Shown piece after piece: positions 3,680 to 37,893 of a stretch of DNA of 47,247 bases (positions within the stretch are counted from its first letter, which is position 1; every line of letters starts with the position of its first letter). Source of the stretch: Fragilaria crotonensis (taxonomy: Eukaryota; Bacillariophyta; Fragilariophyceae; Fragilariales; Fragilariaceae); the NCBI GenBank assembly GCA_022925895.1, contig JAKSYS010000502.1:1-47247 (forward strand). Direction: 5' to 3'. The notes under the pieces were generated by a model, which was not told where the DNA came from, searched no databases, and was given only the letters and a program-made list of their open reading frames with translations. The translations under genes and the position numbers were made by a program.

Positions 3680-6600
3680 TTGTCACGTCTTCGGTTCTGG
3701 CTAGTAGTGGTATGGTCCAAACAAGATCAGGACATGATGTTTTCTACTCAGAAGCGTCATATGGGCGTGCAGCAAGGAAGGAAACAACACGGCAACGGAG
3801 GAAGAGCGAAGTTAACCGAGCATACGTTGGTACAAGGATGTGGTGGTGACGACAGCAACACGAGCACATCGCAAACGACACCAAGAAAAACACGAGCTCA
3901 AATTCGACAAGACAAAGAATTGTCCACTCCACCCAGTACTCTAAATCGAATAGGCAGGACTCCTCCAAGTAAAACAGAGCGACTACTTCGAGGAGGAGAA
4001 AGCCAACGTGCTCTGACTAAATACCCGCCATTTTTGTTTCAAGGAAATGGCTTTTTCTTCTGTCATCCTTGCGATTTGTGGGACTCGCTCCCACCGGATC
4101 AGGTTACAAAGTCCTCTCGATCATCAGCAAGACTAGCTTGCACAGCAAACCATGATTCATTTTCACATCCGACAACCCTTTGCAATGACTATTGCAGGAA
4201 GAGTGTGGTAGCGAGAGCAGCAGTGAATTTTTCTATGAAAAACAAGGATTCATATGAGAGCGAAGATGGCAGTGCTACTAGTAGTACTGCAAGTATAATG
4301 GACGAGCATAATGAAGAACAAGTACTTGAAGCAGACAACCATCATGACGAGGAACTTGAGGAAGACGTCGTACAACCTGAGCATACGACAACGCAGGGTG
4401 GCCATGCCGATGCTACAAATTTAGACATTGATTGTGGTAATGCTGGCGACAGCAGTGTTGCTAGTGGATAACAGTAGCAGTGCTTCAGTCAACAATCAAC
4501 CTGCACAAGAACATTCGACTGTTTTATCTCGTGAAGAACGAGACCAGGAGCTGATTCTGAACTTCAGTGGAAGGTATGAATGCTTCGGAAGTGGAATCTT
4601 AAACTCACGAGAGATCAAGAAAATGCGACAGGATGCAAGTGCTGAAGAGGCAAAGTCAACCGGTCACAAGAACCCGAATGCCTATCAGGCTGCCGTTTTG
4701 GGAGCCATCAGTGTTGCAACTCAAGATGCAACCGACGCATGAATTCCAGTCGCACTGGAGCTCTCGTCGCAAAAGCAGTGTGGAATCATGGATCATTCCA
4801 ACCACATTTGTTGGCCTGCAAGCACTTTCGAGAAAATCTTCACCACAACATCTTACGAGAAATGGATTTGGCGGGAGGAACTCTGTCGTATGAAGGAATT
4901 GATGTTTTGCGTCGAGTTGAGACCTGTGGTATAAAAGGGTGCCGAGGCACCATCATTCCGTCGAAGTCTGAGATCAAGAGAATGGCCGGCATTGTCGAAT
5001 GGTATGCTAACAAATGTTGTCCTTTCACTTTGAAACCAACAGCAAAGGGTGAGTCTATTGAATTTGACTTTGCAAAATCAATGCTATGTAGAACAAAGGC
5101 ATTTTATCTGGATGAAATCGGGAAGGCAAGGAGTTTGTCTGTTGCTTCTTCTATCGATGGAGCATCACTCTCCAAAAATCTGTCGATTGTTGCCAGTGGA
5201 GTGGAGTCAAGATCATCGACCTTGCTGCCCGATGTCCTTCAACAAAGCGACCCCTACTTGATGATCCAGTCACGATGAGTGCACAGTCTCGGAACTTGTG
5301 CATCCCTTTAAAAATAATGATGGGCCGGGAAACAAAGGAGACTTTTACAGAGTTTGCCACGATGTTTAAATTTCTGGATGACCTTTCTGATGAGACGACA
5401 ATGCCAAAGGAGATGGAGGATTTTAAGCCATTTTGTTGCGTGACAAACTGTGATTTATTGGCACAGTGGAAGGGCTTATGCAAGGGTGGCGCCGCAAAGG
5501 TTCATATGCTCCCTTGCACTTGTTGTGCAACAGAGTCCGACAAGTTGGCGACCCCCAATGATACAACATGTGTCCGATGGTGCAACACGCACTCGTCTGA
5601 TCCGGAATGGATGTGTTTCCACAAAACCAACCGCGACACCTGAACGAGTTGTCGCTATGCAGAAGAGGTGAAAGAGCTTCTATCTGTGCTGGGAGGCACG
5701 TGGAGATACAAGCCGAATCACGGATGACTTTAACTGATGTTGAAGTCATCGTTCCATTGCAGAGCTCAACTTGCGACCCTCTATCGATTCACTTTTGCCC
5801 CACAAATCCAACACAACGGCAATTGTACTCTCAGCTTACCGGAGGGCTCGATATCAATGGAACTTTGGAGATACGCCGAGAAAAGTTACGGCATGCTTTG
5901 AAAGGCGAATCGACAATTAATAGACTCTGCAAAGAAATATCCCATGGCGAGGTAAGGGAAGGTGCATACTTCTTGTTAATGCAAACTCTACCATGTGTAC
6001 TTCATATGGAGAACCGCAATGGTATAAAACTCCTGACAATGCTGGCCTTCATTGAAGGGTTATCGAATGCAAAAAGAGGTGTTTGTACACTGATGTGAAT
6101 GCTGAAGGCTCGCGAGTGTTGCGATTCATTTCCTGACATTGAAAGGCTTATCAATCGAGCAATTCTTGGAACAGAGGATGACCCCAAATGGATGTGTCCG
6201 TACGATGCAAAGAAAAGGAGCTTGGTCAATTACCATGGACAACGTCCGTACTCGTCGTGTCGTACATTCTCTTGATATCATTATCGATCTCTGTGTTGTC
6301 GATGAAGGTCGGAAGACCTTGTGGTCCACTGCTCTTAACAACTACAGGATTGCTATGGTACTTCTAAGGAAACGAGATGACTTTACAAATCCGATGATCT
6401 CTTTGTACCAGCACCACGCCGATAAGTTCTACCAGGCATGGATTCTATTGTGGCAGAAGGAAGGGGTAACAAACTACCTTCACATGATGGGTTCGGGACA
6501 CATATCTGACTACCTCTATAAATGGAAGAACCTTTACCGGTTCTTGCAACAAGGTTGGGAAGCTATGAATTCCTTAATCAAGACATTCTTCTTTCGACGC

Positions 6601-9399: not shown

Positions 9400-10075
9400 T
9401 GAGGAAGATGAAGTTTTACGCAGTAACGAGCAAACAATCTGAGTCGACAGAAAGTGAAGGGATGTTCGTTCGCCGAGATACAACTAGAAATTCTCAAATC
9501 AGACGAGAATTGATTGAGTTGTGGTCAAATATCTGGCAAGAGGTAGAGTCCGGATGCCGCATTGTGAGGGTGCGAGGAAGATGGAATTTTTACGCAGCCA
9601 ACGAGCAAACAATCTGAGTCGACAGAAAGTGAAGAGGTGTTTGACCGGCCGTGACACAACTCGAAATTCTCAAATCAGACAAGAATTGATTAAGTTCTGG
9701 TCCAATATGCAGCAAGAGATGGAGTCCGGATGCCGCGTTGTGATGATGTGACAAGAAAATGGAATTTTTAGGCAAACAACTTGCAAACAATCTGAATCGA
9801 CAGACATTGGAAGGATTTTCAATCGGTTGCAACACAATTCGAAATTCTAGAATCAGACAATAATTGATTGAGTTGTGGGCCAATATATGGCGACCAAGCA
9901 GAGTCCCGATGCCGCATTGTGATGGTGCAAGATGTACATTTAATTTTGAAGCAAAAGACGAGCGAACAATCTGAGTATACAGAAAGTTGCGACACTTTTT
10001 GTTGAACTTGGATCATTTTGAAATTCTTAAATTGAACGAGAATTGATTGAGTTGTGGTCTTATATGTAATGATGT
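9400..10075. repeat. tandem repeat of about 177 bp, four diverged copies
   Basis: The word GAGCAAACAATCTGAGTCGA, with small changes, starts at about 9428, 9603, 9781 and 9960, giving spacings of about 175, 178 and 179 bases. Companion words recur with the same period: GAAATTCTCAAATCAGAC, then ATTGATTGAGTTGTGG, then GAGTCCGGATGCCGC. Identity falls toward the right end. No open frame spans the copies consistently, so it looks like a non-coding satellite. Confidence 0.8.
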
Positions 10076-24192: not shown

Positions 24193-24574
24193 GATAATTA
24201 TGTGAGGATGTATTCGATGAGCCGCTCAATTGACCTTCCTTTAGGACGATTGCACCTTCATGCTGGACATGTACATTTGATTGTATGTGTGATTTGTGAT
24301 ATGTGATATGGGATATGGGATAGTGGATACATGAGTACAACTAGCATGTACCGGGACCTGCATGCGCCTACGAGGCTACGAGTCCTTCATTATCATAGTT
24401 GGGTACAGTACGCGGTCATCCTGTTCCCGCTCGTGACTAAACTGTGCCTCCGCGTCTTTAATGCGTTTTTGGTTTAAGAACTTTAAACTTTAAACCCAGA
24501 CCCACCGTCCACCGTACATCATACATGCATACGAGTACAGTACATTTAATAATATATATACTCCTACTAGGATC
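24193..24574. other. spacer left of the large mobile element
   Basis: About 380 bases. It has ATATGTGATATGGGATATGG short tandem words near 24290-24325, GTAC words and an AT run just left of the element (TTTAATAATATATATACTCC). No gene seen. The last bases before the element do not repeat at its right edge. Confidence 0.5.
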
Positions 24575-24649
24575 CGATTAGAATGCAAGGAAATGACGTC
24601 AAGCCGTACCAATCGGGTCCGATTAGGTTTCACCAATTTGACGTCAGCA
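24575..24649 (+). repeat. left terminal inverted repeat (outer 28 nt and inner 32 nt)
   Basis: Outer block begins CGATTAGAATGCAAGG and inner block TCCGATTAGGTTTCACC; both begin with (C)CGATTAG and end with a TGACGTCA palindrome (24594-24601 and 24639-24646). The two blocks are 15 bases apart here but 84 apart at the right end. Each is a perfect inverted match to the right end. Confidence 0.9.
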
Positions 24650-25113
24650 TTTTTTAGCACTTTAGTTGTGGAATTTAACTTGCACGGAATCTTTCTCTTT
24701 GACTTTATCACCGCCCTCTTTTCAAACCAACTCTTGTGCAAAACTACGTTCTAGATAAGGAACATAAATCTGCTCCACATTTGTTTGAATAGAAATAAAA
24801 ATGATCGTGTCTAGATGTGTATAAAACATGGTACCAGTAGTGGATTTGAGTTTACTCGCACAAAACTCATCATTTTGATATTTTACGACCACGATGGTAT
24901 GGCACTTTGTCTCCCTGTCATTATTGTTTCTCTTGTTGTTCTTGCTCTCCTTGCTGCTTTTGTTTCTCTTGTTGCCCTTGTTCTGTTTTCGCTCTTGTTT
25001 GCTCTCTATCTGTTGTCATTTTGCTTGCATTACTATAGCAACCACCTACCGATTAATTTGTTGCCAACCCCATGTTTCGGTCTCTTTAGGATCATCCACA
25101 ACAAGAAGTACCA
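24650..25113 (+). promoter_or_regulatory. 5' leader of the transposase gene
   Basis: About 460 bases between the left terminal repeat and the first transposase codons. It must contain the promoter. A TC/TTG-rich tract at 24905-25020 reads as a Leu-rich open frame, but I take it as low-complexity leader sequence. No clear TATA box position can be fixed. Confidence 0.35.
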
Positions 25114-28100
25114 TTGATGCAGGATCCCCATGCTGTGGACCAGACTCTATCTGCTCTCAAGGCTATGTCATGGACTGCTTCTTTGCCTTTCAAAGGTCAT
25201 TTTTGTCATGCAACCGATGATTTCAATGCATCATTGGAAACGGAGTACGACCTCTTTCAGTACACTACCTCCATGTACAAGGGTTCCAAGCATATTATTC
25301 GGTTCAGTCCATCTCTTTATCCCATCAATGGTGGATTTGAAAGGATTCAGGAGGCCATAGTCTTATCACTGACTTACTCCAAGCTGCCAAATCTGTTGGG
25401 AATTGTGCCCTTGTTTCCAATGGTTATGGTTTGTTCCCAACCAATGTCACAGATGTACTACTGACTGACCAACGCGTATTGAAATGCAGTAATTTCCGCC
25501 AGTATTCATCAGAAGAAGGAGGAATGTCCTGCACACGAACCAAAGTACTGGAACCGATTCTTATCGTGTTACCACCTACACTGGTGATAAGAAGAATGCC
25601 CGTGGGTGCAAGAGTTCTGGCATCGGATTGAAACGTCGCAATTCAACTCTACGTGGTAACTCCTGCACTTGTCGTGTCAAATTCACACTCGAATTGACCA
25701 TAATAGCTTTTCCTTGTTTGCGGAATTGGAAACAATCAGCACACTGGCCATCCTCCTCTTCTTTCCAATGAAATAAGGAATCGTAAACGCTTTCTTGACA
25801 TTACAACCCTGGAAACTGTTGCTGCAATGAGTGTTGCCAACATCCAGCCTGCCCAAGCGGCTCTGTTTACTAAAACCCGTACGGGTCAGATTTTTACTCG
25901 TGGTCAGATGGCATATGTGCAAGGATTTACAAAAATGGCAAAAGACTTCATGGCTTCCCCAAATGTTCATGCTACCACAACAGCATCAGTCTTCACCCTG
26001 TGAGAATATGTTGAGTTACTTACAAAAAGTGGTGCCTCGTATGTCTGTCTGTATCATCATGGCAAATCAAAAGAACTACGTGGTAACAGTGTAAAGGCTG
26101 CACGTACTGAAGCCATTCCTCATGATTTATCAGGTGAACTAACCAGCCTTTCTGTTATCCCAACTGATGATGACACTGATGACACTTCACCTATTCACGA
26201 GAAGCCAGTACCTCTGGAGGTGGCAGAGACATCCACTTTTAAGAAATATGCTTTGGAAAGCAGACTTGCGGTTGGTGCAAGGGAAGACCAGGATATACTC
26301 ATTGCCTGTTGTTGGGTTTTACCAGAAGGCAGGCGCCTGTTCCACGCTTTTCCTGAAGTTGTATGCGTTGACGGCACTCATGAGACGAACAATGAAAGCA
26401 GACCATTGCTGACACTCTCTGTGAAAGATTCAAATGGAAAGGTGACTGTGGTTGTTAGGTGCATTGCCCCGAATGAACGATCTTGGTTCTTCCGTTGGCT
26501 ATTCCAAGAAGCCATTCCTGTTCTTCTTGGTGCACAATCACTACATGCTGTGAAACTTATCATGACTGACGGTGATTCCCAAGAAATGACACAAGTTGAC
26601 TATGCCATCTCCACACATTTTGCAATGCGTACTCGATGTGGGTGGCACCTTGTTGATCAAGGCTGGCGACGAAATTGTAAAGGCTTGGGTTATCGGAGAG
26701 GCAAGGATGATGCCGCCAAGAGGCAGGTAAGAGTAATAAAAACCTGGATCTACAGCTGGATGCGCCGAGGATACTTTTCCAAGACGAGTACGAAATGTGA
26801 GTACACCTACATGTTTATTCTGTGTGTTATCTGTGATACCATTTTTCTAAAAGAATCGTCAACATCAAAGAAGTTACGCCCTTTTACATATGTACTTGAA
26901 ATCAGACACTATTAAGGCAATTTTTGGGGAGGACGGTGGAGAAAAGATATTGCACTTTATCCGCAATTACATAATTCCACAAGAGCAGAGTTATTGCTTT
27001 TATCTGAGGAAGGGGGTGAGACACTTCGAGACCAACACAAATTCTGGGCACGAAGGTACAAATAATGCTATCAAAGCTGGTCCTTCCTGTGTGCTTCCAC
27101 AGCATGGTGTTGACAAATCTGTCAAAATTCAAGTTGACACCGATTCCAACAAATTTGACCTATACCAACGATATATGGCTAGTGCCCTGTTTGGAAGAGC
27201 AACCTGGAGTAACTCTCCCACCGTCAATGATGTCACCCTTCCTGCAGAGTTCATGTTGAAATTCGCTCTTGATCAATGCGAGAGCTATGCTTCTTGGAGA
27301 GCAAGCCCTTTCAAATGGCTTGTTGTTCGGTCAGTTGACCGTGATGTCCATTCTTTGATTCCATGCTTCCACAGAGTGTACACTGTCACCTCACAAGACT
27401 TTGACAACAGGGTTTGTCTGATGTGTGACTGCAACTACTACGAATGCAATGGTGTCATCTGCCCACACATGATGCATGTGAAGAAGTATTATGCAAGCAA
27501 TCCAAACATCAGTCACCACGACATTTCAGTACGTTGGTGGAAATCATATATTTATTTCTCAATGAAGAAGGAGAGTGATTGCTCACTAACTGAGAAAGAG
27601 ATAAAGCAGAAGCTGGAATCAATACGTGAGAATGATTGCAAAGGCCCAAACTTTATTCCAAAGAATGACGATCATACTTTCTCTCCATTCCATCGTGTCT
27701 ACAAGTGTGGGAAGAATTCAAATGAGCAATTCAGAAATGCCACTGAAAGTACCATTGACTCCCTTTTCAAAAACCCTCAAAACTGGACAGTGTCGTAAAC
27801 TACACCAGGGATGAGGTTGAGATTGCCCTGAAGAATGCCAAAAATACTGTTCCCGTATCAATGTCGCAAGAGATCCACTTGCCTGAGGAACCACTCATCG
27901 ACGCTGGTCATGAAACTGAGCACACGAATACTCATCTTGACGACAATGACGACATCCTCATGGAATCTACGAGTTTAGAAACTGACTGCATTGATTTTGG
28001 ATCACGTGCTCTTCACCATGAAGACGTATCCGAATTGGAACGTTACAATGCGTACGACAGCATTATGCCAAGAGCAAAGGAACTAGTTAGTCTTGTTGAT

Positions 28101-28271
28101 GCCTCAAAAGCCCACAAGAGAGGTCTTCTTGTTGAGGAGGCACTCGACAAGATTATCTTCACCGAGAAAGCCAACATGGCTTCTGAGAAACCACCACCCA
28201 AAGGGTCCCTAGTTTCGGGGTGTCCTGTTGGCAAGGTGTGCAAAACATATGTCTCATCATGGAGTTTTTAA
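25114..28271 (+). pseudogene. Mutator-like (MULE) transposase with SWIM zinc finger, interrupted
   Basis: Cut-and-paste transposase spread over several frames. The N-terminal region (25114-25464 and on) leads to a Cys/His DNA-binding stretch (GCKSSGIGLKRRNSTLRGNS, CTCRVKF, then QHTGHP). The frame from ~25815 to 26915 has one TGA at 26001-26003. DDE-type catalytic motifs: VVCVDGTHETN (first Asp), LIMTDGDSQEMTQ (second Asp) and TNSGHEGTNNAIK at 27035-27075 (Glu). A SWIM finger follows: LMCDCNYYECNGVICPHMMH (27420-27480), CxC...CxH as in MULEs. A GT-AG intron is likely at 26797-26853. A one-base break near 27790 leads into the C-terminal frame 27861-28271. 'Pseudogene' is provisional: all key residues are present and the breaks are single bases plus one stop. 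Confidence 0.8.
26797..26853 (+). other. probable short intron in the transposase gene
   Basis: 57 bases starting GTGAGTACACC and ending in a T-rich tract with TTTTTCTAAAAG, flanked by transposase sequence on both sides (YFSKDEYE-type block before, RQHQRSYALLHMYLKSD after). The exact reading phase across it is disturbed by one base. Confidence 0.55.
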
Positions 28272-28345
28272 AAGTAGTACATTTAGAATTAATAACAATG
28301 TTGACTTAGACTTTCGTTCTTGTTCGACATCATGACTAGGATGGG

Positions 28346-29364
28346 GACTATTTGGTGATCGAAATTCGATCTTCAAATAGTCATCACAGTACGAGTATCA
28401 CAAGTACAGTACGAAGGTGACTATTTGGTGATCGAAATTCGATCTTCAAATAGTCATCACAGTACGAGTATCACCAGTACAGTACAATGGCGACTATTTG
28501 GTGATCGAAATTCGATCTTCAAATAGTCGTCACAGTACGAGTATCACCAGTACAGTACAATGGCGACTATTTGGTGATCGAAATTCGATCTTCAAATAGT
28601 CATCACAGTACAAGTACCACCAGTACAGTACGCGGTGACTATTTGGTGATCGAAATTCGATCTTCAAATAGTCGTCACAGTCTGATATCACCAGTACAGT
28701 ACAATGGCGACTATTTGGTGATCGAAATTCGATCTTCAAATAGTCGTCACATCGAGTATCACCAGTACAGTACAATGGCGACTATTTGGTGATCGTAATT
28801 CGATCTTCAAATAGTCGTCACAGTCGATATCACCAGTACAGTACAATGGCGACTATTTGGTGATCGAAATTCGATCTTCAAATAGTCATCACAGTACGAG
28901 TACCACCAGTACAGTAACGGTGACTATTTGGTGATCGAAATTCGATCTTCAAATAGTCGTCACAGTCGAGTATCACCAGTACAGTACAATGGCGACTATT
29001 TGGTGATCGAAATTCGATCTTCAAATAGTCGTCACAGTCTGATATCACCAGTACAGTACAATGGCGACTATTTGGTGATCGAAATTCGATCTTCAAATAG
29101 TCGTCACAGTACAGTATCACCAGTACAGTACAATGGCGACTATTTGGTGATCGAAATTCGATCTTCAAATAGTCGTCACAGTCGAGTATCACCAGTACAG
29201 TACGAAGGTGACTATTTGGTGATCAAATTCGATCTTCAAATAGTCATCACAGTACAGTACCACCAGTACAGTACAATGGCGACTATTTGGTGATCGAAAT
29301 TCGATCTTCAAATAGTCGTCACAGTACGAGTATCACCAGTACAGTACGACGGCGACTATTTGGT
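28346..29364 (+). repeat. array A: 14 full units of ~72-74 bp with a 37-bp palindrome
   Basis: Unit starts GACTATTTGGTGATCGAAAT and continues TCGATCTTCAAATAGTC; arms GACTATTTG/CAAATAGTC and GATCGAA/TTCGATC pair around a central A. Between palindromes are 35-37 bases such as ...CACCAGTACAGTACAATGGC. The last unit (29354-29364) is cut inside the palindrome, exactly where the next gene ends. Both strands stay open in several units because many are 72 nt, but this is not evidence of coding. Confidence 0.95.
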
Positions 29365-30693
29365 ATTATTGTTTCCTCCAACAACTGCTGTCTTCAGGTA
29401 TAACGACACACAAAACACATCTTTCTCTTGATATTGCAATGTGCGGGATGTCAAACAGTGCTGATACAATGGATTGAAAAGTAACATATCTCCCGGCCTC
29501 AGTGCCACGGCAACCTTGTTCTGCAAATGCAAAGTAGTTCGTTACGTCGGCATCCAATCGGTATTTATCAAACCGACCCGGTTGCAATCCATGTTGCGAA
29601 ATAATGGTTGTCAAGGAATAGAAAAAATCCTCATCGGTATGCGAATTCAAACAATAGTTTTGCCACAGGCAAGACTACCTAAATTGGTTCAGATGGCATA
29701 CCTACCATACTTGGCCAATCGGCAAACCATTGGGCACTACGGAGTCCTCGAAGATCATTCCCTGGAATGAATCCTTTTGCAACTTCATGACACCTCTTCA
29801 TTAAGTCACGGATTTGTGTCTTGCTCCAGTCACTTAATGTTTTCGGCCAAGACTCGATAATACCAGTTGAACCACGGTTTGGCTTTAACCCAACAGTGGT
29901 GTATTTGCCATTATCTTCCGCAACAGGTACTCGTTTAATTCCACGCACTTCTGCTTTGGATTCTGCATCCTCAAGTGCATGAAGTGCCTCGATGGTTTGG
30001 TTAACCCTTGTAAGTTTTTCAACAACATACGGACGTGGGATCAAAGTGAATACGTTATCCCCACTCGGTAAAATCAAACGGGCACCAGACATAGTGTCAA
30101 TGACTTTAAGATCATTGATTGCAAACAGCATGTGCGCATCACCTATGCATTTGCGAAGTCTCGTTGAGTTTTCCATATCGGCTCCACTATAGAATAATGG
30201 TTTACAACTGTTCTGCAACAGTGTTTTGCCCAGTGAATGCTCATGGGACGACGAAACTTGCATCAAACTATCTAGCCTTTTCTTCTTCAAATAATTGCGC
30301 TTCATAAACACTCTTTGGCTTGCCATTTTCTATTGCCTTCTTGTATGCTTCCTGCGTCGTGATGCTTGACTTTTTCCTTGATTTATATACATGTTGAAAA
30401 CCTCGTTTTCCAGTCTTGCCAATGTTCTCACTTGTGGTATCATTCTGTACAACCGTACTCCTCATCATGCTTTTTGTGACGTCAAGGTTGGAACTGCTGT
30501 TACTGTGCCCCGAGTCACAGATAACAGTGACCTGTTTTGACGTCCTCATGATGGTTTCCTCGTTGCTACATTTGCATTCCACAACCGTACTCCTCATCAT
30601 GCTTTTTGTGACGTCAAGGTTGGAACTGCTGTTACTGTGCCCCGAGTCACAGATAACAGTGACCTGTTTTGACGTCCTCATGATGGTTTCCAA
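29356..30693 (-). CDS. 2-oxoglutarate/Fe(II)-dependent dioxygenase-like protein, with several 1-2 base gaps
   Basis: Frames 30693-30268, 30326-29679, 29650-29366 and a last one ending at TAG 29356-29358 form one protein of about 440 residues. The C-terminal half looks like a double-stranded beta-helix dioxygenase: NSHTDEDFFYSLTT has the HxD iron motif; LRPGDMLLFNPLYQHC has the distal His; an Arg follows (SR), then DVFCVSLYLKTAVVGGNN. Upstream: WADWPSMVGMPSEP, TVGLKPNRGSTGIIESWP. Such enzymes oxidise protein, nucleic-acid or small-molecule substrates; the fold is close in style to TET/JBP-like or prolyl-hydroxylase proteins, but the substrate is unknown. Frame breaks at ~30285, ~29690, ~29665 and ~29525 each disappear if one or two A/T bases are added to a short run. 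No ATG is found before residue 5 of the 30693 frame, so the 5' end is incomplete. Confidence 0.6.
30449..30690 (-). repeat. near-perfect tandem duplication, period 132 bp, inside the dioxygenase gene
   Basis: The segment beginning ACAACCGTACTCCTCATCAT recurs 132 bases later with about 110 bases identical. 132 is a multiple of three, so the reading frame is kept and the protein has two identical copies of a Ser/Thr-rich segment (ICDSGHSNSSSNLDVTKSMM). Each copy contains a TGACGTCA palindrome (30477-30484, 30609-30616). The identity points to a recent event. Confidence 0.9.
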
Positions 30694-30840
30694 GTTGCTT
30701 CTGCCGTTTGATAACCATTCGCAACAGCGTTGGGCAAGGGAATCGAAGGAGGAAAAATGTGATCAGAGTTTATACTTTCTGTCACGTCGCATGTGTCAGA
30801 AGTACGTCAGTGCTCAAGGGCGACATCACTCAGAACACTC

Positions 30841-32074
30841 GTCAAAGAACAAAATTCGTACACCAAATAGTCGTCATCGTACTGTCATACTGTTACTTGT
30901 TCATTCGTGACTATTTGAAGAACAAAATTCGTACACCAAATAGTCGTCATCGTACTGTCATAGTGTTACTTGTTCATTCGTGACTATTTGAAGATCGAAA
31001 TTCGTACACCAAATAGTCGTCATCGTACTGACATACTGTTACTTGTCCATTCGTGACTATTTGAAGATCGAAATTCGTACACCAAATAGTCGTCATCGTA
31101 CTGACATACTGTTACTTGTCCATTTGAGACTATTTGAAGATCGAAATCGTACACCAAATAGTCGTCTTCGTACCGTCATACTGTTACTTGTCCATTCGTG
31201 ACTATTTGAAGATCAAAATTGTACACCAAATAGTCGTCATCGTACTGTCATACTGTTACTTGTCCATTCGACTATTTGAAGATCGAAATTCGTACACCAA
31301 ATAGTCGTCATCGTACTGACATACTGTTACTTGTCCATTCGTGACTATTTGAAGATCAAAATTCGTACACCAAATAGTCGTCTTCGTACTGACATACTGT
31401 TACTTGTCCATTCGCGACTATTTGAAGATCGAAATTCGTACACCAAATAGTCGTCTTCGTACCGTCATACTGTTACTTGTCCATTCGTGACTATTTGAAG
31501 ATCAAAATTCGTACACCAAATAGTCGTCATCGTACCGTCATACTGTTACTTGTCCATTCGCGACTATTTGAAGATCGAAATTCGTACACCAAATAGTCGT
31601 CATCGTACTGACATACTGTTACTTGTCCATTCGTGACTATTTGAAGATCAAAATTCGTACACCAAATAGTCGTCTTCGTACTGACATACTGTTACTTGTC
31701 CATTCGCGACTATTTGAAGATCGAAATTCGTACACCAAATAGTCGTCATCGTACTGACATACTGTTACTTGTCCATTCGTGACTATTTGAAGATCGAAAT
31801 TACACCAAATAGTCGTCATCGTACTGACATACTGTTACTTGTCCATTCGTGACTATTTGAAGATCAAAATTCGTACACCAAATAGTCGTCTTCGTACCGT
31901 CATACTGTTACTTGTCCATTCGCGACTATTTGAAGATCGAAATTCGTACACCAAATAGTCGTCTTCGTACCGTCATACTGTTACTTGTCCATTCGTGACT
32001 ATTTGAAGATCGAAATTACGGGTTACTTCGTCTAAGAAGACTATTTGAAGATCAGAATCTGTACACAATTAGTG
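30841..32074 (-). repeat. array B: ~16 units of ~73 bp, palindromic, inverted relative to array A
   Basis: Unit reads GACTATTTGAAGATCGAAAT, TCGTACACCAAATAGTC, then GTCATCGTACTGACATACTG, TTACTTGTCCATTCGT on the plus strand. The 37-bp core is the reverse complement of the array A core with few changes; the intervening 36 bases are different. The first unit (from AAGAACAAAATTCG) and the last two (TCGAAATTACGGG; GATCAGAATCTGTACAC) are incomplete or decayed. It fills the space between the two divergent genes. Confidence 0.95.
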
Positions 32075-32153
32075 CAATCGACACTGTGAGCATCTGCACC
32101 TGATTTGTATATGTTGAAGGTCGTCAAGTCTTAAACAACTCATCTCCCTCAGT

Positions 32154-32954
32154 ATGCCCCCGAAGACAAAGAGCGCGCCGAAGGCAACCAGTACGCATGA
32201 CGATGATCCATTTGACGGATGTGAACCCCCAGTAATGAAGACGATGATTGAGATGATGAAATGGCACCACCGCATTCCACGTGATCAATTACCAACGTTC
32301 CTACAGGAATATCGTATTCTTCACTTTGTTGGAAGAGAAGATGAATACAATGCGAGTGATACTGTTTATGAATTGTATCATGTTATATTCGACGACCATT
32401 CAGATCGGAAGTCACTGTCATCTTGCCTTGGTAAGGGCGAGACACTTAGTATATGGGAAAAGGAGAAACCCACTGCTATATGCGCTATAACGTTTGTACA
32501 ACGAGAGAACGCTGTTTTGGTTCTTTTTTTGGCAACAAAGGTTGACTATCAGGCCAACGGAATGGCAACTTTTTTGCTTTCGATTATGCATCAAGTTGTA
32601 AGGTGTAGGGTGGGTGTTGATGAAGTAAATGTTTATTTGAAAGCAAATCCGACCGCGAACAAAGTGGCATGGGGTTATTATTCAAGACGCAACTTTGCCG
32701 AAATGGCTGAAGGGACTGAAGCATTTCCTAAAGTTTTGAGAGACTGTTTTGTCAATGAGGTTGATGATAGTCCACTCAAGGACTATCTCGGATTCAGCAA
32801 CGATTTGAAGTGGTTGACGATTTGCCTTACACGTGAATATTTTGCCTTCCCACAAGAATCCAGAAACCAGATAGTATTGAAAAGGTTGTTCAACAATCCC
32901 AATGACAACACCATTGATTGTCCATCCGTGTATGCCTTCTTCCCGGAAACTTAA
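32154..32954 (+). CDS. GNAT N-acetyltransferase-like protein (probable N-terminal part of a larger protein)
   Basis: 266 codons from an ATG at 32154, preceded by array B. After a basic N-terminus (MPPKTKSAPKATS) there is a GNAT-like core: ICAITFVQRENAVLVLFLAT, then KVDYQANGMATFLLSIMHQV resembling the acetyl-CoA-binding motif A (Q/R-x-x-G-x-A/G), then KANPTANKVAWGYYSRRNFA as motif B. It would acetylate a protein or small molecule. The frame ends at 32954, while the next frame begins 36 bases earlier with no ATG; one missing base near 32950 would join the two into a ~1,230-residue protein. Confidence is fair for the fold, low for activity. Confidence 0.6.
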   Translation: MPPKTKSAPKATSTHDDDPFDGCEPPVMKTMIEMMKWHHRIPRDQLPTFLQEYRILHFVGREDEYNASDTVYELYHVIFDDHSDRKSLSSCLGKGETLSIWEKEKPTAICAITFVQRENAVLVLFLATKVDYQANGMATFLLSIMHQVVRCRVGVDEVNVYLKANPTANKVAWGYYSRRNFAEMAEGTEAFPKVLRDCFVNEVDDSPLKDYLGFSNDLKWLTICLTREYFAFPQESRNQIVLKRLFNNPNDNTIDCPSVYAFFPET

Positions 32955-35803
32955 CATACGAAGAGGCAACATTTTGTACACCAACTTATGATTGTTACTC
33001 GGGTGAATTTTGGGATGACAAGGCCTTCCATCCGAAGAACTCGATAATGGAAAAATACCTATTCCAAGGTCCAAGTGCTCGTCTGACTTGGATAGATCGT
33101 TGCCTTACGCGCAAAGGTGACGCTCTTTCTCCAGACTTTGTGGACATTGCTCTGGGATGGCTGCAGCGGTATTGTAAAGCTGAAATTTGGTCGACCCTGA
33201 CCATCATTCCTTGTAAGATCATGACTGAGGTGTCAACAATGGAGAGCCTTTTTACATCCTTCATTGAAGGACGGAACGTTGCATCTTCGGTTCGCGACCT
33301 AAAAACCGATACAGAGAGAAGACAGTTTGTAAACCACATCTTTCATTACGAGATTGACCAAAAGAGGTTTATGGAGGCAACAATTCTGGTGGTGGAGTTC
33401 ATTATACAACACAAGGATCTCCTCACGAAGCCGTTTATTGTCATTCCTGCACAAGAGGATGAAGATTGTTCATGGACTGTTTTCGTAGCGGTGAATTGTG
33501 GAAAAACTGGGAACAATGATAACGATACAAAATGTGGATATTTTTTGTTTGATCCAACTGGAAAACGTCGCCGTTCTGACCCACCGCCAATTTGCCGGTT
33601 CTTCCTCAAATTGGTGCACTTCATACTCAGTCCTGAGAATGATCCAAATGCAAAAGCACGAAAACCAAAGAAGAAAAGAAAAGAAAGCTCACCATGGAAA
33701 GACAAGGTTGTTGCACCATGGTTTTTCAACATGCATTCGTTTTACGTCGGTTTCACACGGCAAAGCGTTAATTTTGGTTGTGTCGTCACTGACAAGAACA
33801 ATGAGACATGTGACATCGAGAAGGGGCGCTTCCGACCGTTGAGTTTACCGCCAGATTACATTCTAATTCAGGAAACGTCAAAGGATGTGGCGCAAAGTGG
33901 TTTAAAATCATTGATTTTCATCCGCGATTTTTGTGTCATGGTGCACGACGTCACATTCGACACGAGTGGGAATGTGAAAGGTGACATCACTTTTGACAGG
34001 AATGACAATGTCAAGGGCATGGGCAGGAACATTCCCACATCAACACGAAAATTTGCTCACTATTTGCATGACGTGTACGTGAGCTTGTTTCAACTGATTG
34101 ACAGAATAGCAAGCAGCAACTTTGGGTCGGTTCGAGAAGAAGCTCATGAGTACAAAAAATATCTTCGTCCCAGCAAGGGGATAGAACGGTCGCTTTCGTT
34201 GGGGGGGAAACTAACGATGCCCGGACCACGACATGCGTTTCCTGATTTAGCCAAGATATTGCAGTGGCAACCTTTGTCGAAAGAAAGAGTGTTGCTTGGC
34301 AGGGAAACAGATTTGTGCCAGATGAATAATGATGATGTAGCGAAGCGGTTGCGAAAGACTTCGCGAAAGCCTCGACAAACAAAGAAAAAAGGGAAGACGG
34401 ATAGTGGTGAAGAGCAGTCGGGTGGTCTAGGCCAGCGAAAGCAGGATGATCCATCGTTGACGAAGTCGCCAGCACGAAAGGGTGAAGCAGAGGCAGTACA
34501 GGAACAAGATCATACATCACCAGAAAAGATTCAAGACACCGAAAAGATGCCTGATGGAGCACATACGACCACGGCGCTCTCGCAGGGAAGTGAATTTGTG
34601 CCATTGTCTATACAGCATATTGCTACATTTATTTCAAGTTTAAAGAAGGACTTCGAATATGCTGCATCAGAAGATGAGAAGAAGAATCTGTGTTGGCAAA
34701 TCCTTGCTCTTTCACACGAGAAGTCTCCATTGCCATTTGTCGAAAATGCGTTGAAGTTTATACGCGATAATTTTGAAAAGGAAAATGAAAGTGTTTCGAT
34801 AATCGCCAAACCTGGGAAAAAGGATGTACTGTGTGGGAAGGGGCACCGCAAATGCATTCCGTACCTTGATCGCACATTGGACTTCAAGAAAATGCACTTG
34901 TCAGCAGCTAATCAGGCAGAAAAATATGAGGTGCAGCGTACCATTTACACAACTCTAAAAAAGGAGGGATTTCGTTTCCTCGAGATGACAGAAAAAAAAG
35001 GGTGGAAGGAAAAAACATACGATGGTGGAATGGCGTATATTAGATCGCGAATGAAACGTGTGTGTGAAAAAGAAGAGGGCATGACGCCGTCAATAAATGA
35101 ATTGGAGGCCGGACCAGGTCCATTTGAAAGTACATCTCTACCGCCAAATGGTATTGTAGTACGTAAACGCGATGAACCAAAGGGACATCCACCAAACATG
35201 GCTTTCCGTCGGATAATCCGAAGAGCTGCAGATGCCACGTTTGAAAGTCGAACAGAAAGCGCTAAGGACAATATTGCAGGTGAAGTGCTAGAGGAGATGC
35301 GGAAAAAAGGTTACATCTTTGTCAATAAAGAGGAAAACGTTTGGAAAGGTGTCAACACAGAAAAAGTAAGGAAAGAGGTTCGGGATCGTCTAAGGAAATC
35401 AGTGTACTTTGGGAAACAAAGTACGGTGACGGAAAGAAAAGCTGGTGACGACAATGATGCTGGCATTGAATGCAAGCAACCTTCAAAACAGCGGATGACA
35501 GGAAGTTTGAAAGCTGGTGAGAAGGATGATGCTTGTATTGAATGCAATAAGCCTTCAAAAGAGCGGATGACAGGAAGTAAGAAAGCTGGTGACGAGGATG
35601 ATGCTTGTATTGAATGCAATAAGCCTTCAAAGCACTCGTGTCGGAAATGTAAGAAGCATGTATGTTCCATGTGTTGCAATGAAAAGAGAAAGCTCGAAAA
35701 CACTTGGTGGTGCAACGTGTGTTTCAATAGACAAAGTGTTTGGAAGCAAACATTAATTCGGGACGGCAATTACAGTACTTCGGATGAAGAATGCAAGAAA
35801 TGA
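32918..35803 (+). CDS. Ulp1-like (degenerate) – two DUF6824 – Cys-rich zinc-binding protein
   Basis: Long frame (first ATG at 33047; likely continues from the GNAT frame). Domains: (1) residues ~60-330, a C48/Ulp1-like protease fold with FIVIPAQEDEDCSWTVFVAV and GYFLFDPTG; the expected catalytic His before Trp is Ser and the expected Cys after the Gln (VAQSGLKSLIF) is Ser, so it looks inactive. (2) a basic, low-complexity linker at ~480-560. (3) two DUF6824 domains, common in diatoms, at about 640-720 (KKDVLCGKGHRKC ... GFRFLE) and 750-840 (GHPPNMAFRRIIRRA ... GYIFVN). (4) three 25-27-residue repeats of type DDACIECNKPSK at about 845-905, the last running into CRKCKKHVCSMCC...WWCNVCF, a zinc-ribbon-like end. 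It may bind nucleic acid or proteins. No homologue with this full order is known to me. Confidence 0.6.
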   Translation: MSIRVCLLPGNLTYEEATFCTPTYDCYSGEFWDDKAFHPKNSIMEKYLFQGPSARLTWIDRCLTRKGDALSPDFVDIALGWLQRYCKAEIWSTLTIIPCKIMTEVSTMESLFTSFIEGRNVASSVRDLKTDTERRQFVNHIFHYEIDQKRFMEATILVVEFIIQHKDLLTKPFIVIPAQEDEDCSWTVFVAVNCGKTGNNDNDTKCGYFLFDPTGKRRRSDPPPICRFFLKLVHFILSPENDPNAKARKPKKKRKESSPWKDKVVAPWFFNMHSFYVGFTRQSVNFGCVVTDKNNETCDIEKGRFRPLSLPPDYILIQETSKDVAQSGLKSLIFIRDFCVMVHDVTFDTSGNVKGDITFDRNDNVKGMGRNIPTSTRKFAHYLHDVYVSLFQLIDRIASSNFGSVREEAHEYKKYLRPSKGIERSLSLGGKLTMPGPRHAFPDLAKILQWQPLSKERVLLGRETDLCQMNNDDVAKRLRKTSRKPRQTKKKGKTDSGEEQSGGLGQRKQDDPSLTKSPARKGEAEAVQEQDHTSPEKIQDTEKMPDGAHTTTALSQGSEFVPLSIQHIATFISSLKKDFEYAASEDEKKNLCWQILALSHEKSPLPFVENALKFIRDNFEKENESVSIIAKPGKKDVLCGKGHRKCIPYLDRTLDFKKMHLSAANQAEKYEVQRTIYTTLKKEGFRFLEMTEKKGWKEKTYDGGMAYIRSRMKRVCEKEEGMTPSINELEAGPGPFESTSLPPNGIVVRKRDEPKGHPPNMAFRRIIRRAADATFESRTESAKDNIAGEVLEEMRKKGYIFVNKEENVWKGVNTEKVRKEVRDRLRKSVYFGKQSTVTERKAGDDNDAGIECKQPSKQRMTGSLKAGEKDDACIECNKPSKERMTGSKKAGDEDDACIECNKPSKHSCRKCKKHVCSMCCNEKRKLENTWWCNVCFNRQSVWKQTLIRDGNYSTSDEECKK

Positions 35804-35836
35804 GTTCATCGTAGTCGTACATGCTGTATGTAGTAG

Positions 35837-36517
35837 CCTATTTGAAGGTCAAAATTTGTACACCAAATAGTCGTCTTCTTACTGTCATAGTGTTACTTGT
35901 TCATTCGTGACTATTTGAAGAACAAAATTCGTACACCAAATAGTCGTCATCGTACTGTCATAGTGTTACTTGTTCATTCGTGACTATTTGAAGATCGAAA
36001 TTCGTACACCATATAGTCGTCATCGTACTGTCATACTGTTACTTGTTCATTCGTGACTATTTGAAGATCGAAATTCGTACACCAAATAGTCGTCTTCTTA
36101 CTGTCATACTGTTACTTGTCCATTCGCGACTATTTGAAGATCGAAATTTGTACACCAAATAGTCGCATCGTACTGACATACTGTTACTTGTTCATTCGTG
36201 ACTATTTGAAGATCGAAATTCGTACACCAAATAGTCGTCTTCTTACTGGCATACTGTTACTTGTCCATTCGCGACTATTTGAAGATCGAAATTTGTACAC
36301 CAAATAGTCGCATCGTACTGACATACTGTTACTTGTTCATTCGTGACTATTTGAAGATCGAAATCGTACACCAAATAGTCGTCTTCTTACTGGCATACTG
36401 TTACTTGTTCATTCGTGACTATTTGAAGATCGAAATTCGTACACAAAATAGTCGTCATCATACTGACACACTGTTACTTGTCCATTCGAGACTATTTGAA
36501 GATCGAAATTCGTACAG
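35837..36517 (-). repeat. array C: ~9 units of ~73 bp, same orientation as array B
   Basis: Units as in array B (GACTATTTGAAGATCGAAAT ... CACCAAATAGTC), with spacer ...TTACTTGTTCATTCGT. It begins 33 bases after the stop codon of the last gene with a changed unit (CCTATTTGAAGGTCAAAATT) and ends inside the core at CGTACAG. Confidence 0.95.
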
Positions 36518-36836
36518 AAAGAAAGTTCTGTTGGTGTTGATTAAGAAGAAAAGTGTACTTGTATTCAAGGAGATTTGCAACCCTACTAGGTTGTAATCGA
36601 ATACAAAGTAATGTAAGTTCGAGTGATTCAAAACAAGGGAAACACATGAATCACTGATAGAAGGAGATATGTAGCAGTTATCTTTCTGGCATGACAAAGG
36701 GTTGACATGCGCGTTAGGAAAAGCGCCGACAGAAGTCAACAACAAAGATTCCGTGTTTTGTCAGCCATTCAAATTTCCGATGTCTTCAAAAATCTTCTAC
36801 AGGAGGACTCACTGTAGTTTATTACTGTGACGTGGG
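36518..36836. other. gene-free right shoulder of the mobile element
   Basis: About 320 bases between array C and the inner right terminal repeat. Nothing coding. CCCTACTAGGTTGTAATCG near 36582 vaguely recalls the CTACTAGGATCCGATTAG of the left edge. Confidence 0.4.
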
Positions 36837-36980
36837 TGCTGACGTCAAATTGGTGAAACCTAATCGGATCTCTCTCAATATGTTACTGTCTTACTGGAGT
36901 ACTGTATCACCGTAGGCAGCACGTGAAAGGGTCAGTACTGTGACGTCATGCTTTGACGTCATTTCCTTGCATTCTAATCG
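36837..36980 (-). repeat. right terminal inverted repeat (inner 32 nt, 84-nt insert, outer 28 nt)
   Basis: 36837-36868 and 36953-36980 are perfect inverted copies of the left inner and outer blocks. The 84 bases between them have no left counterpart except an extra TGACGTCA at 36941-36948. TGACGTCA also occurs at 36840-36847 and 36954-36961. Confidence 0.9.
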
Positions 36981-36985
36981 AAACC

Positions 36986-37893
36986 AGGAGGTTCCGGAAG
37001 TCTGGCTTTTCTACCGTATCGTACATTTGTCTACACAAATTCTGTACGTGCGATTCCTTCAAAACAAAAGCTAAATAAATCCACGTCTGATATAAATCGG
37101 AACGGTGAGCTCATGATCCTTTTTAATTAACAACAAGCACTTGTATGTGTGAACTTAAGTAATGGTAGCGGAAATGACTTCTTTGACGACGGTTAAAATA
37201 AGGTGGTTAAATTACTTAGTAAGGATATGTCCAAAAGCCTTTGGCTCCAGAAGCCATTGGCTTAAGCCAGTGGCTTCTGAAAGTCATTGGCTTAAGCCAA
37301 TGGCTTCTGGAAGTCAATGGCTTAAGCCAATGGCTTCGCCGAGCTAATCAAGGAACGTGTTTTATTCCTATGGGAACTCGTTATAAAGGAAACGAGACAT
37401 AATGAGGGGTCATCGTCAAATGCGTACCATATATTCAAGTCTATAAGTTCGTCATGACACTGTCTATTTGAAGATGAAAAGCCTGAAGTAAGACCTTTGA
37501 TGACGAGCTTCCAATAATATTAAAACGTGTGTTTTTCAGTTTGGCTTCGCCGACTATAGCGTGGAAGCCATTGGCTTCCAGAAGCCTTTGGCTTAAGCCA
37601 ATGACTTCCAGAAGCCTTTGTCTTAAGCCATTGGCTTCTGGAAGCCAATGGCTTTTATCCCTAAGTAGTTCCAAGAACAATGCGTTGATTTCACGTTCGC
37701 AGTTCGCACACGTCGTTTCGATGCAATTTACTTAAGACTCTCGACATCACGTTTGGTAATTTAGAAATAATCCCGACATTCGAAATCGGTGCAAGGGGGG
37801 ATAATTTATCCGGATCCGTTCGAAATGGAATACGATAGTATGCGTAGCCGCCAGTATTGCGTACGGCAAACAAGCCAAACTTCCGGAACCTCC
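36986..37893. repeat. 0.9-kb inverted-repeat (foldback-like) segment abutting the large element
   Basis: The arm at 36986-37018 (AGGAGGTTCCGGAAGTCTGG...) is matched in reverse complement at 37862-37893 (…CCAAACTTCCGGAACCTCC) with about 27 of 32 bases identical. No open gene lies between. The interior holds two clusters of CCATTGGCTTAAGCCAATGG-type words. Confidence 0.6.
37233..37654. repeat. two clusters of GGCTTAAGCC / GAAGCCATTGGCTTCC palindromic words
   Basis: 37233-37340 and 37561-37654 consist of ~10-nt words GGCTTAAGCC, CCATTGGCTT and AATGGCTTCTGGAAGCC repeated about every 28-32 bases. Both clusters lie next to GGCTTCGCCGA and an AACGTGT...TTTT word in opposite order, so they look like inverted partners. 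They read as a repeated SQWLKPMAS-type peptide on the plus strand; I do not call a gene. Confidence 0.7.

Follow-up and report, generated by a model that had tools for sequence, protein, structure and literature searches.

We analyzed a 47,247-nt contig of the diatom Fragilaria crotonensis (JAKSYS010000502.1 of assembly GCA_022925895.1; hereafter, the window), which is C451 in the numbering used for searches of its own genome (62.1 Mb, 881 contigs). Below, C with a number denotes a contig of this genome and L with a number a fetched locus. At positions 24615..36871, the window contains a complete Mutator-like element (MULE) of 12,257 bp, here called family B, which encodes a transposase, a TET/JBP-like dioxygenase and a fused GNAT/SENP-fold/DUF6824 protein. 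A first-pass annotation of this region had described one transposon with a split terminal repeat, composed of two perfect inverted block pairs. Both pairs are present as described: an outer 28-nt block (24575-24602, forward strand) pairs with 36953-36980 (reverse strand), and an inner 32-nt block (24618-24649, forward) pairs with 36837-36868 (reverse), each with 0 mismatches and with gaps between blocks of 15 nt on the left and 84 nt on the right. However, they do not form one repeat: each block comes from a different element, one nested inside the other. The 45 nt to the left and 114 nt to the right of the inner block are the two halves of a single miniature inverted-repeat transposable element (MITE) of another family, family A, which is ~154 bp long and reads GGATC-CGATTAGAATGC...GCATTCTAATCG-AAACC. 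The left half (24570..24614, forward strand; GGATC followed by CGATTAGAATGCAAGGAAATGACGTCA...) matches the uninterrupted 154-bp MITEs L097 and L057, and the right half (36872..36985, forward strand) ends in CTAATCGAAACC. Compared with these two MITEs, the window copy lacks exactly AGCATG at the insertion point, and the other differences are confined to single letters and 1-bp gaps, except at the left end of L057 itself. Given the uninterrupted MITEs and the loss of exactly these 6 bp from the window copy, the split is an accident of nesting; the 12.3-kb family B element is inserted inside a family A MITE.

We also considered the outer 28-nt block as the terminus of the 12-kb element and rejected it, since none of the other 10 large copies contains it at ≤5 mismatches in the stretches fetched, and the MITE explains it. 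The first-pass annotation had stated that its reading would be refuted by end blocks occurring mainly as isolated short repeats. This was true of the outer block in the samples read, where 6 of 8 and 12 of 18 ends came from ~154-bp copies (147 + 141 occurrences in the genome at ≤3 mismatches; reversed-pattern control, 0), but not of the inner block in the large copies compared, 10/10 of which, besides the window copy, have it at both ends. Immediately outside the MITE, the right flank (36986-37185) is a dispersed repeat of which, among the matches listed, 14 further copies start at almost the same base; the MITE therefore sits close to, if not exactly on, the boundary of a further repeat.

The claim of a cargo-bearing transposon was confirmed by the recovery of ten other full-length copies on ten contigs (copy lengths, 11,904-12,962 bp). 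All of them carry the same 32-nt terminal inverted repeat (TIR), with GGG ahead of it at the left end and AGA at the right end, so that the 35-bp left TIR (24615..24649, forward strand) and the 35-bp right TIR (36837..36871, reverse strand, read inward from the right end) are matched with 0 mismatches in 11/11 copies. Just 1-6 substitutions separate the window copy from those of C105, C93, C77 and C183 across the initial 3.6 kb, and therefore the copies are very young. The same comparisons contain 11-18 small gaps, of which 5-7 are single bases in homopolymers; because substitutions are few and gaps many, much of the frame breakage seen in single copies is probably read error. Flanks are common to the contig pairs C35/C175, C305/C93, C495/C105 and C166/C77, and some contigs are thus likely to be haplotypes of one insertion.

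The transposase gene (26004..28271, forward strand) is broken over several frames by introns and/or read errors. Its frame at 26004-26912 contains the MULE domain PF10551 (43.6 bits versus a cut-off of 27.6, E = 4e-11) and a ZSWIM1-3 RNase-H-like domain, and PF21056 also exceeds its Pfam cut-off in this transposase (E = 7e-14), which bears out the earlier label of a MULE-type enzyme. PF10551 was found in C860 as well, and the frame at 26851-27798 contains CxC...CxH, which we take to be a SWIM-like motif. As expected of a MULE, TIRs stand at both ends of the mobile copies (the 32-nt TIR is perfect in 11/11 full-length copies). No Pfam model of another transposase superfamily scored above its own cut-off, and the transposase exceeded the cut-off as MULE/ZSWIM; the KDZ, hAT, PHIS, CMCT, IS3EU or Helitron transposases of the TET-encoding fungal families were likewise not found with Pfam.

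The TIR skeleton CGATTAG-N12-TGACGTCA is common to families A and B, whose 12-nt cores are distinct. This skeleton occurs 180 + 188 times in the genome (control, 0), and among the 100 skeleton places listed, family B end pairs were found ~127 nt apart, so that short copies comparable to the family A MITEs exist in family B too. Family A in turn has a large element: C388 carries a 10.5-kb element whose termini contain the outer core CGATTAGAATGCAAGGAAATGACGTCA, and C860 encodes nearly the same proteins in an element cut by the contig end. The protein identity between the window copy and these relatives is 69-73% for the MULE protein (C388/C860), 53% for the TET-like protein (C388), 44% for the GNAT and 36% for the part following it (both C860). 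With a shared skeleton and a swapped core, the two families form a matched pair in which one could test how a transposase recognizes the ends that belong to it. At C8:11590-27279 and C87:35856-51928, family A and B end pairs lie ~16 kb apart, possibly delimiting still larger elements.

The dioxygenase-like gene (29386..30762, reverse strand) occupies several frames in the window copy, with an HxD motif at 29641-29612, a second His within 29493-29455 and an invariant-Lys motif at 29406-29386. The N-terminal part of its frame includes a 132-bp tandem repeat of 1.9 copies (30449..30699, reverse strand), whose counterpart is 135 bp in C388 and C860 and 138 bp in C592. The structure predicted for relatives is the TET/JBP variant of the double-stranded beta-helix of 2-oxoglutarate-Fe(II) dioxygenases. 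The HxD...H iron ligands are invariant in 55/55 aligned sequences (the alignment takes 54 of the 82 homologues), and the window copy retains both its HTD and its His, in two different frames. Judging from the predicted fold, the product would oxidize 5-methylcytosine on the element.

Several observations weigh against a TET-like activity. In TET proteins, the Arg that binds 2-oxoglutarate follows the last His, and at the corresponding place (column 332, placed by eye) 50/55 sequences appear to have C or S. Lys 338 is invariant in 55/55 sequences and Arg 321 is present in 48/55; the invariant Lys, six residues on, may stand in for the Arg, so that activity is not assured. Furthermore, profiles did not recover TET (PF20515 matched weakly in 1/55 members, E = 0.13), and no TET chain was among the seven PDB sequence matches at E ≤ 10, which comprised just short WelO5-like and unrelated weak matches. 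Pfam, NCBIfam and PHROGs gave no usable match for the dioxygenase, and no relative was confirmed in IMG/VR and GTDB contigs, where the records may not include those of this genome or a closely similar one. The TET-like homologues P0006, P0009 and P0019 lie on metagenome contigs of 8-17 kb. Alternatively, the enzyme might hypermodify bases in the manner of JBP or algal CMD1, or act on RNA or protein and not remove 5-methylcytosine, which we consider somewhat unlikely.

The second cargo gene (32154..35800, forward strand; in the window copy, two overlapping frames at 32154-32951 and 32918-35800) encodes a putative GCN5-like GNAT, a SENP/Ulp1-fold domain, DUF6824, which is mainly a diatom domain, and a C-terminal Cys-rich stretch (PF02318, below cut-off). 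The first-pass annotation had listed GNAT, Ulp1-like and DUF6824 as a gene set. The parts are present, but as one gene: the GNAT and Ulp1-like parts share one open frame in C183, C860, C388 and the metagenome protein P0083, and the Ulp1-like part and DUF6824 form one 961-aa open frame in the window. Of the earlier domain labels, DUF6824 exceeds the Pfam cut-off in the window copy (E = 1e-11); dioxygenase, GNAT and Ulp1 had no Pfam match there and rest on the predicted folds of relatives. A C48 (Ulp1/SENP) fold was predicted, although the GNAT-SENP model is poor (pLDDT 55.7), which counts against our overall explanation. By motif reading, with registration by eye, the catalytic His-Asp-Cys of Ulp1/SENP seems to be lacking: S, T, A or I precedes the conserved Trp, the 'DCG' place reads NFG or NIG, and the Asp place holds D, V, N or E. 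The SENP-fold domain has apparently lost its catalytic residues and is therefore probably a binder of SUMO or ubiquitin-like proteins, not a protease.

We then examined the insertion sites. The first-pass annotation had predicted target-site duplications (TSDs) of 8-11 bp, and none was exact in the 11 + 31 insertions compared. In the 11 large copies, at least 4 mismatches remained at every length from 8 to 11 bp (C31 has a 3-bp match), and no exact TSD of 4-11 bp flanked the 31 distinct family A MITEs, which are those of the 44 fetched loci with ends paired at ≤5 mismatches and without repeated flanks. Both usual end 5-mers were present in 21 of these 31 MITEs, one in 8 and none in 2. Queries for unoccupied sites comprised 10 large copies, the window with 22 MITE entries (L008 repeats L045), a set of 6 MITEs and a set of 4 MITEs; the last represents 4/6 of that half, L095 (right flank identical and left flank nearly identical to L087) and L097 (adjoined by a TIR-like sequence) being omitted. 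An unoccupied site was found for one of the 10 large copies (C304). Altogether, both flanks could be compared with unoccupied relatives at nine sites, namely the window, C304, L050, L056, L088, L089, L092, L094 and L058; L006 and L048 gave one flank each, and the remaining MITE entries had no unoccupied relative. Two candidates for an unoccupied allele of the window locus were rejected: C94 stops at the start of the element, and C18 differs in sequence past the junction.

No duplication flanked the insert at any of the nine compared sites (0/9), and exactly 6 bp were lost at five of them. The letters lost were AGCATG in the window (relative to uninterrupted MITEs), TACATG in C304 (relative to C46, with a further 2-bp difference 4 bp away), AGTAAG at L050 (two relatives), AATGCT at L056 and TGCAGC at L088. 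At L089, the net change was 0, and CGCAC of the target stands in place of the left GGATC of the element (3/4 relatives read CGCACG and the fourth is one base shorter). The element thus seems to insert by replacing six target letters, not by duplicating the target. The simplest account would be a 6-nt overlap in which element letters face target letters and which is settled mostly toward the element. Specifically, the excised element would bear 6-nt 5' overhangs that are ligated opposite the 6-nt overhangs of the target, and the mismatched junctions would be resolved mostly to element letters: resolution to the element at both ends would yield a 6-bp loss, and resolution of one end to the target would yield no net change. 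Tn916 integrates by a coupling-sequence mode, and we rejected a mechanism of this kind, as in each of the five clean cases the element's letters are retained at both ends.

Three sites fit the replacement less well: L092 is compatible with a net change of 0 except for an additional 7-bp repeat at its left side, L094 lost 8 bp compared with three relatives, and L058 is 2 bp shorter than diverged relatives. The loss at L094 would suit repair of blunt or resected breaks without overhang exchange, 6 bp being then a preference. However, the loss was exactly 6 bp in five clean cases that keep both element ends, and the replacement of a terminal 5-mer by the target's own letters at L089 is not expected from trimming; we therefore regard break repair as unlikely.

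The genes are separated by arrays of hairpin-forming repeats. Array 1 (28341..29364), which lies between the convergent transposase and TET-like genes, has ~14 units of 71-73 bp, all containing a GACTATTTG...CAAATAGTC hairpin. The TET-like and GNAT genes, which are divergent, flank array 2 (30845..32017; ~16 units of 73 bp), whose orientation is opposite to that of array 1, and array 3 (35838..36516; ~9 units of 73 bp, oriented like array 2) follows the fused gene. The long hairpin of the array-1 unit was equalled by 0/200 shuffles (z = –5.8), and one array-2 unit, with the boundaries set by the repeat finder, was unremarkable (z = –1.4; 14/200 shuffles as good). The three equivalent places in C388 are taken by an unrelated 52-bp unit that contains a GGCGGCATT...AATGCCGCC hairpin, with the equivalent inversion (orientation judged by eye). 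Such arrays lie at 1367-1674, 5496-5763 and 7410-7980 of L079, as counterparts of the window arrays within 28341-36516. C860 has two before its contig end, and in the fetched stretch of C592 the repeat finder reported the coding repeat only. The layout of the arrays, with three positions and a relative inversion, is conserved between families A and B, whereas their sequence is not. Insulation, transcription termination and transposase binding are possible roles.

Linkage of the genes was counted in six-frame searches, which took in 49/73 TET-like, 22/36 GNAT and 89/101 MULE rows (secondary pieces at loci already listed were omitted); the counts are lower bounds, and some contigs end nearby (C305, C860). 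A MULE match was found ≤7 kb from the TET-like gene at 26/48 loci, 24 of them in opposite orientation, and a TET-like gene ≤4 kb from the GNAT at 18/22 loci, 16 of them divergent. On the other hand, 22/48 TET-like loci had no MULE detected within 7 kb and 4/22 GNAT loci no TET-like gene within 4 kb, and gene orientation deviates in C93, C305 and C130, which argues against a strict unit. Between the window and C388 or C860, the ratio of nonsynonymous to synonymous substitution rates (dN/dS) was 0.17 for the TET-like gene, 0.13-0.17 for the MULE gene, 0.22 for the GNAT and 0.35 for the part after it, dS being close to saturated; other comparisons of the TET-like gene gave 0.10 between the window and C592, 0.26 between C388 and C592, and 0.20 between the window and the near copy C305. 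The cargo genes are under purifying selection. At L083 and L084 (C592, C783), a related TET-like/GNAT/SENP set is next to an open frame resembling a helicase (a DEAH-like motif was seen by eye), lacks any MULE match up to 7 kb away and perhaps represents another element class carrying the same cargo.

Plant Pack-MULEs capture host gene fragments, and the extra genes could in the same way be passengers transduplicated from the host with no role for the element. DUF6824 may indeed be host-derived, as a DVLCGRG stretch resembling its own was seen by eye in a frame immediately beyond the C388 element, and a tendency of MULEs to take up pieces of host genes is described by Dupeyron et al. (2019, PMC6446971). 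However, genes, order, orientation and array positions are common to two families that are 36-73% identical in protein with dN/dS of 0.13-0.35, and the metal ligands are invariant throughout the alignment, which makes a passenger origin quite improbable. That the window is a chance-symmetric composite of two unrelated repeats deserves practically no credence: the outer block by itself is a common short repeat, but it is contradicted by ten further copies, whose ends are identical and whose flanks differ, and by an unoccupied relative found for one site.

Thirteen stretches of the host genome match the family of C5-cytosine methyltransferases (contamination is possible). The CpG ratio of the MULE gene is 0.53-0.57 in 11 near-identical family B copies, which are not independent in this respect, and 0.72-0.74 in C388 and C860, compared with 1.00 ± 0.08 in nine frames of the window flanks. 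This low CpG fits past methylation of the transposase gene but is no proof, and the TET-like and GNAT genes, at 0.79-0.95, are nearer normal, which, like the non-independence of the copies, counts against the explanation that follows. Overall, we consider it probable that an autonomous family B MULE landed in a small non-autonomous family A relative, that its transposase would mobilize the whole 12.3-kb unit (ends of the same kind also moving 154-bp MITEs), that the dioxygenase and fused protein, kept by selection, would together protect the element from silencing, and that insertion would swap 6 bp of the target for the element's own terminal letters. The cargo plausibly acts on DNA and chromatin; we infer the anti-silencing role because the TET-encoding transposons of fungi are analogous. 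More tentatively, in a reading somewhat less likely than not, the element would represent a DDE-type lineage without target duplication that combines an exact 6-bp swap through a mismatched-overhang (heteroduplex) junction with an epigenetic kit, namely a TET-fold base oxidase and an acetyltransferase fused to a dead SUMO-protease fold, in which genes are separated by hairpin arrays of conserved layout and unconserved sequence.

Elsewhere in the window, we observed two clusters of palindromic 30-bp tandem repeats of the AAGCCATTGGCTT type (37234-37337 and 37564-37654) and a tandem repeat with a 178-bp unit in 3.3 copies (9401-9987).

With respect to known systems, the proposed insertion model resembles that of piggyBac, in which the target gap is closed by the element's own 5' overhangs without fill-in and TTAA on both sides leaves no scar; unlike in piggyBac, letters differing from the target are carried in. 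Plant Kaonashi/KI-MULEs carry ULP1-like genes and are thus also MULEs with an Ulp1-fold gene, but here this fold is fused to GNAT, seemingly catalytically dead, and accompanied by a TET-like enzyme. In the open-licence literature covered, we found no MULE with a TET-like gene and no 6-bp replacement, searches on target-site deletion included; searches for MULE transposons with Ulp1 and a dioxygenase, for JBP with Mutator-like transposons and for DUF6824 also returned none. DNA transposons encoding TET/JBP are already known in fungi from other superfamilies (Kyakuja, Dileera, Zisupton, Plavaka, hAT, Harbinger, EnSpm, IS3EU, ESTA and Helitron; Kojima 2025, PMC12730594). The main text of that paper contains no occurrence of 'MULE', 'Mutator', 'diatom', 'Ulp1' or 'acetyltransferase', and 'MuDR' appears twice in the introduction, for other genes; it proposes escape from silencing, stated there as not experimentally validated. 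The element described here is similar to those transposons in being a multicopy DNA transposon with a TET/JBP-fold enzyme thought to relieve methylation silencing, and differs in that the lineages named there are fungal and not MULEs. A diatom group without TSD is also known: MULE-Diatoms (group 37), tabulated as 'No TSD and not indicated', with SWIM and TIRs of 123-124 bp (PMC6446971). These are likewise stramenopile MULEs without TSD, and a SWIM-like motif, by our reading, is shared, but one ORF and no extra gene are listed for them and the perfect TIR here is 32-35 bp; the passages on this group give no account of the missing TSD, and the 6-bp replacement may explain that entry. If our reading is true, a non-standard outcome of DDE integration becomes testable with long-read data, and transposon-borne TET enzymes extend from fungi to a MULE in an alga, which would point to transposons having been armed against DNA methylation more than once and independently.

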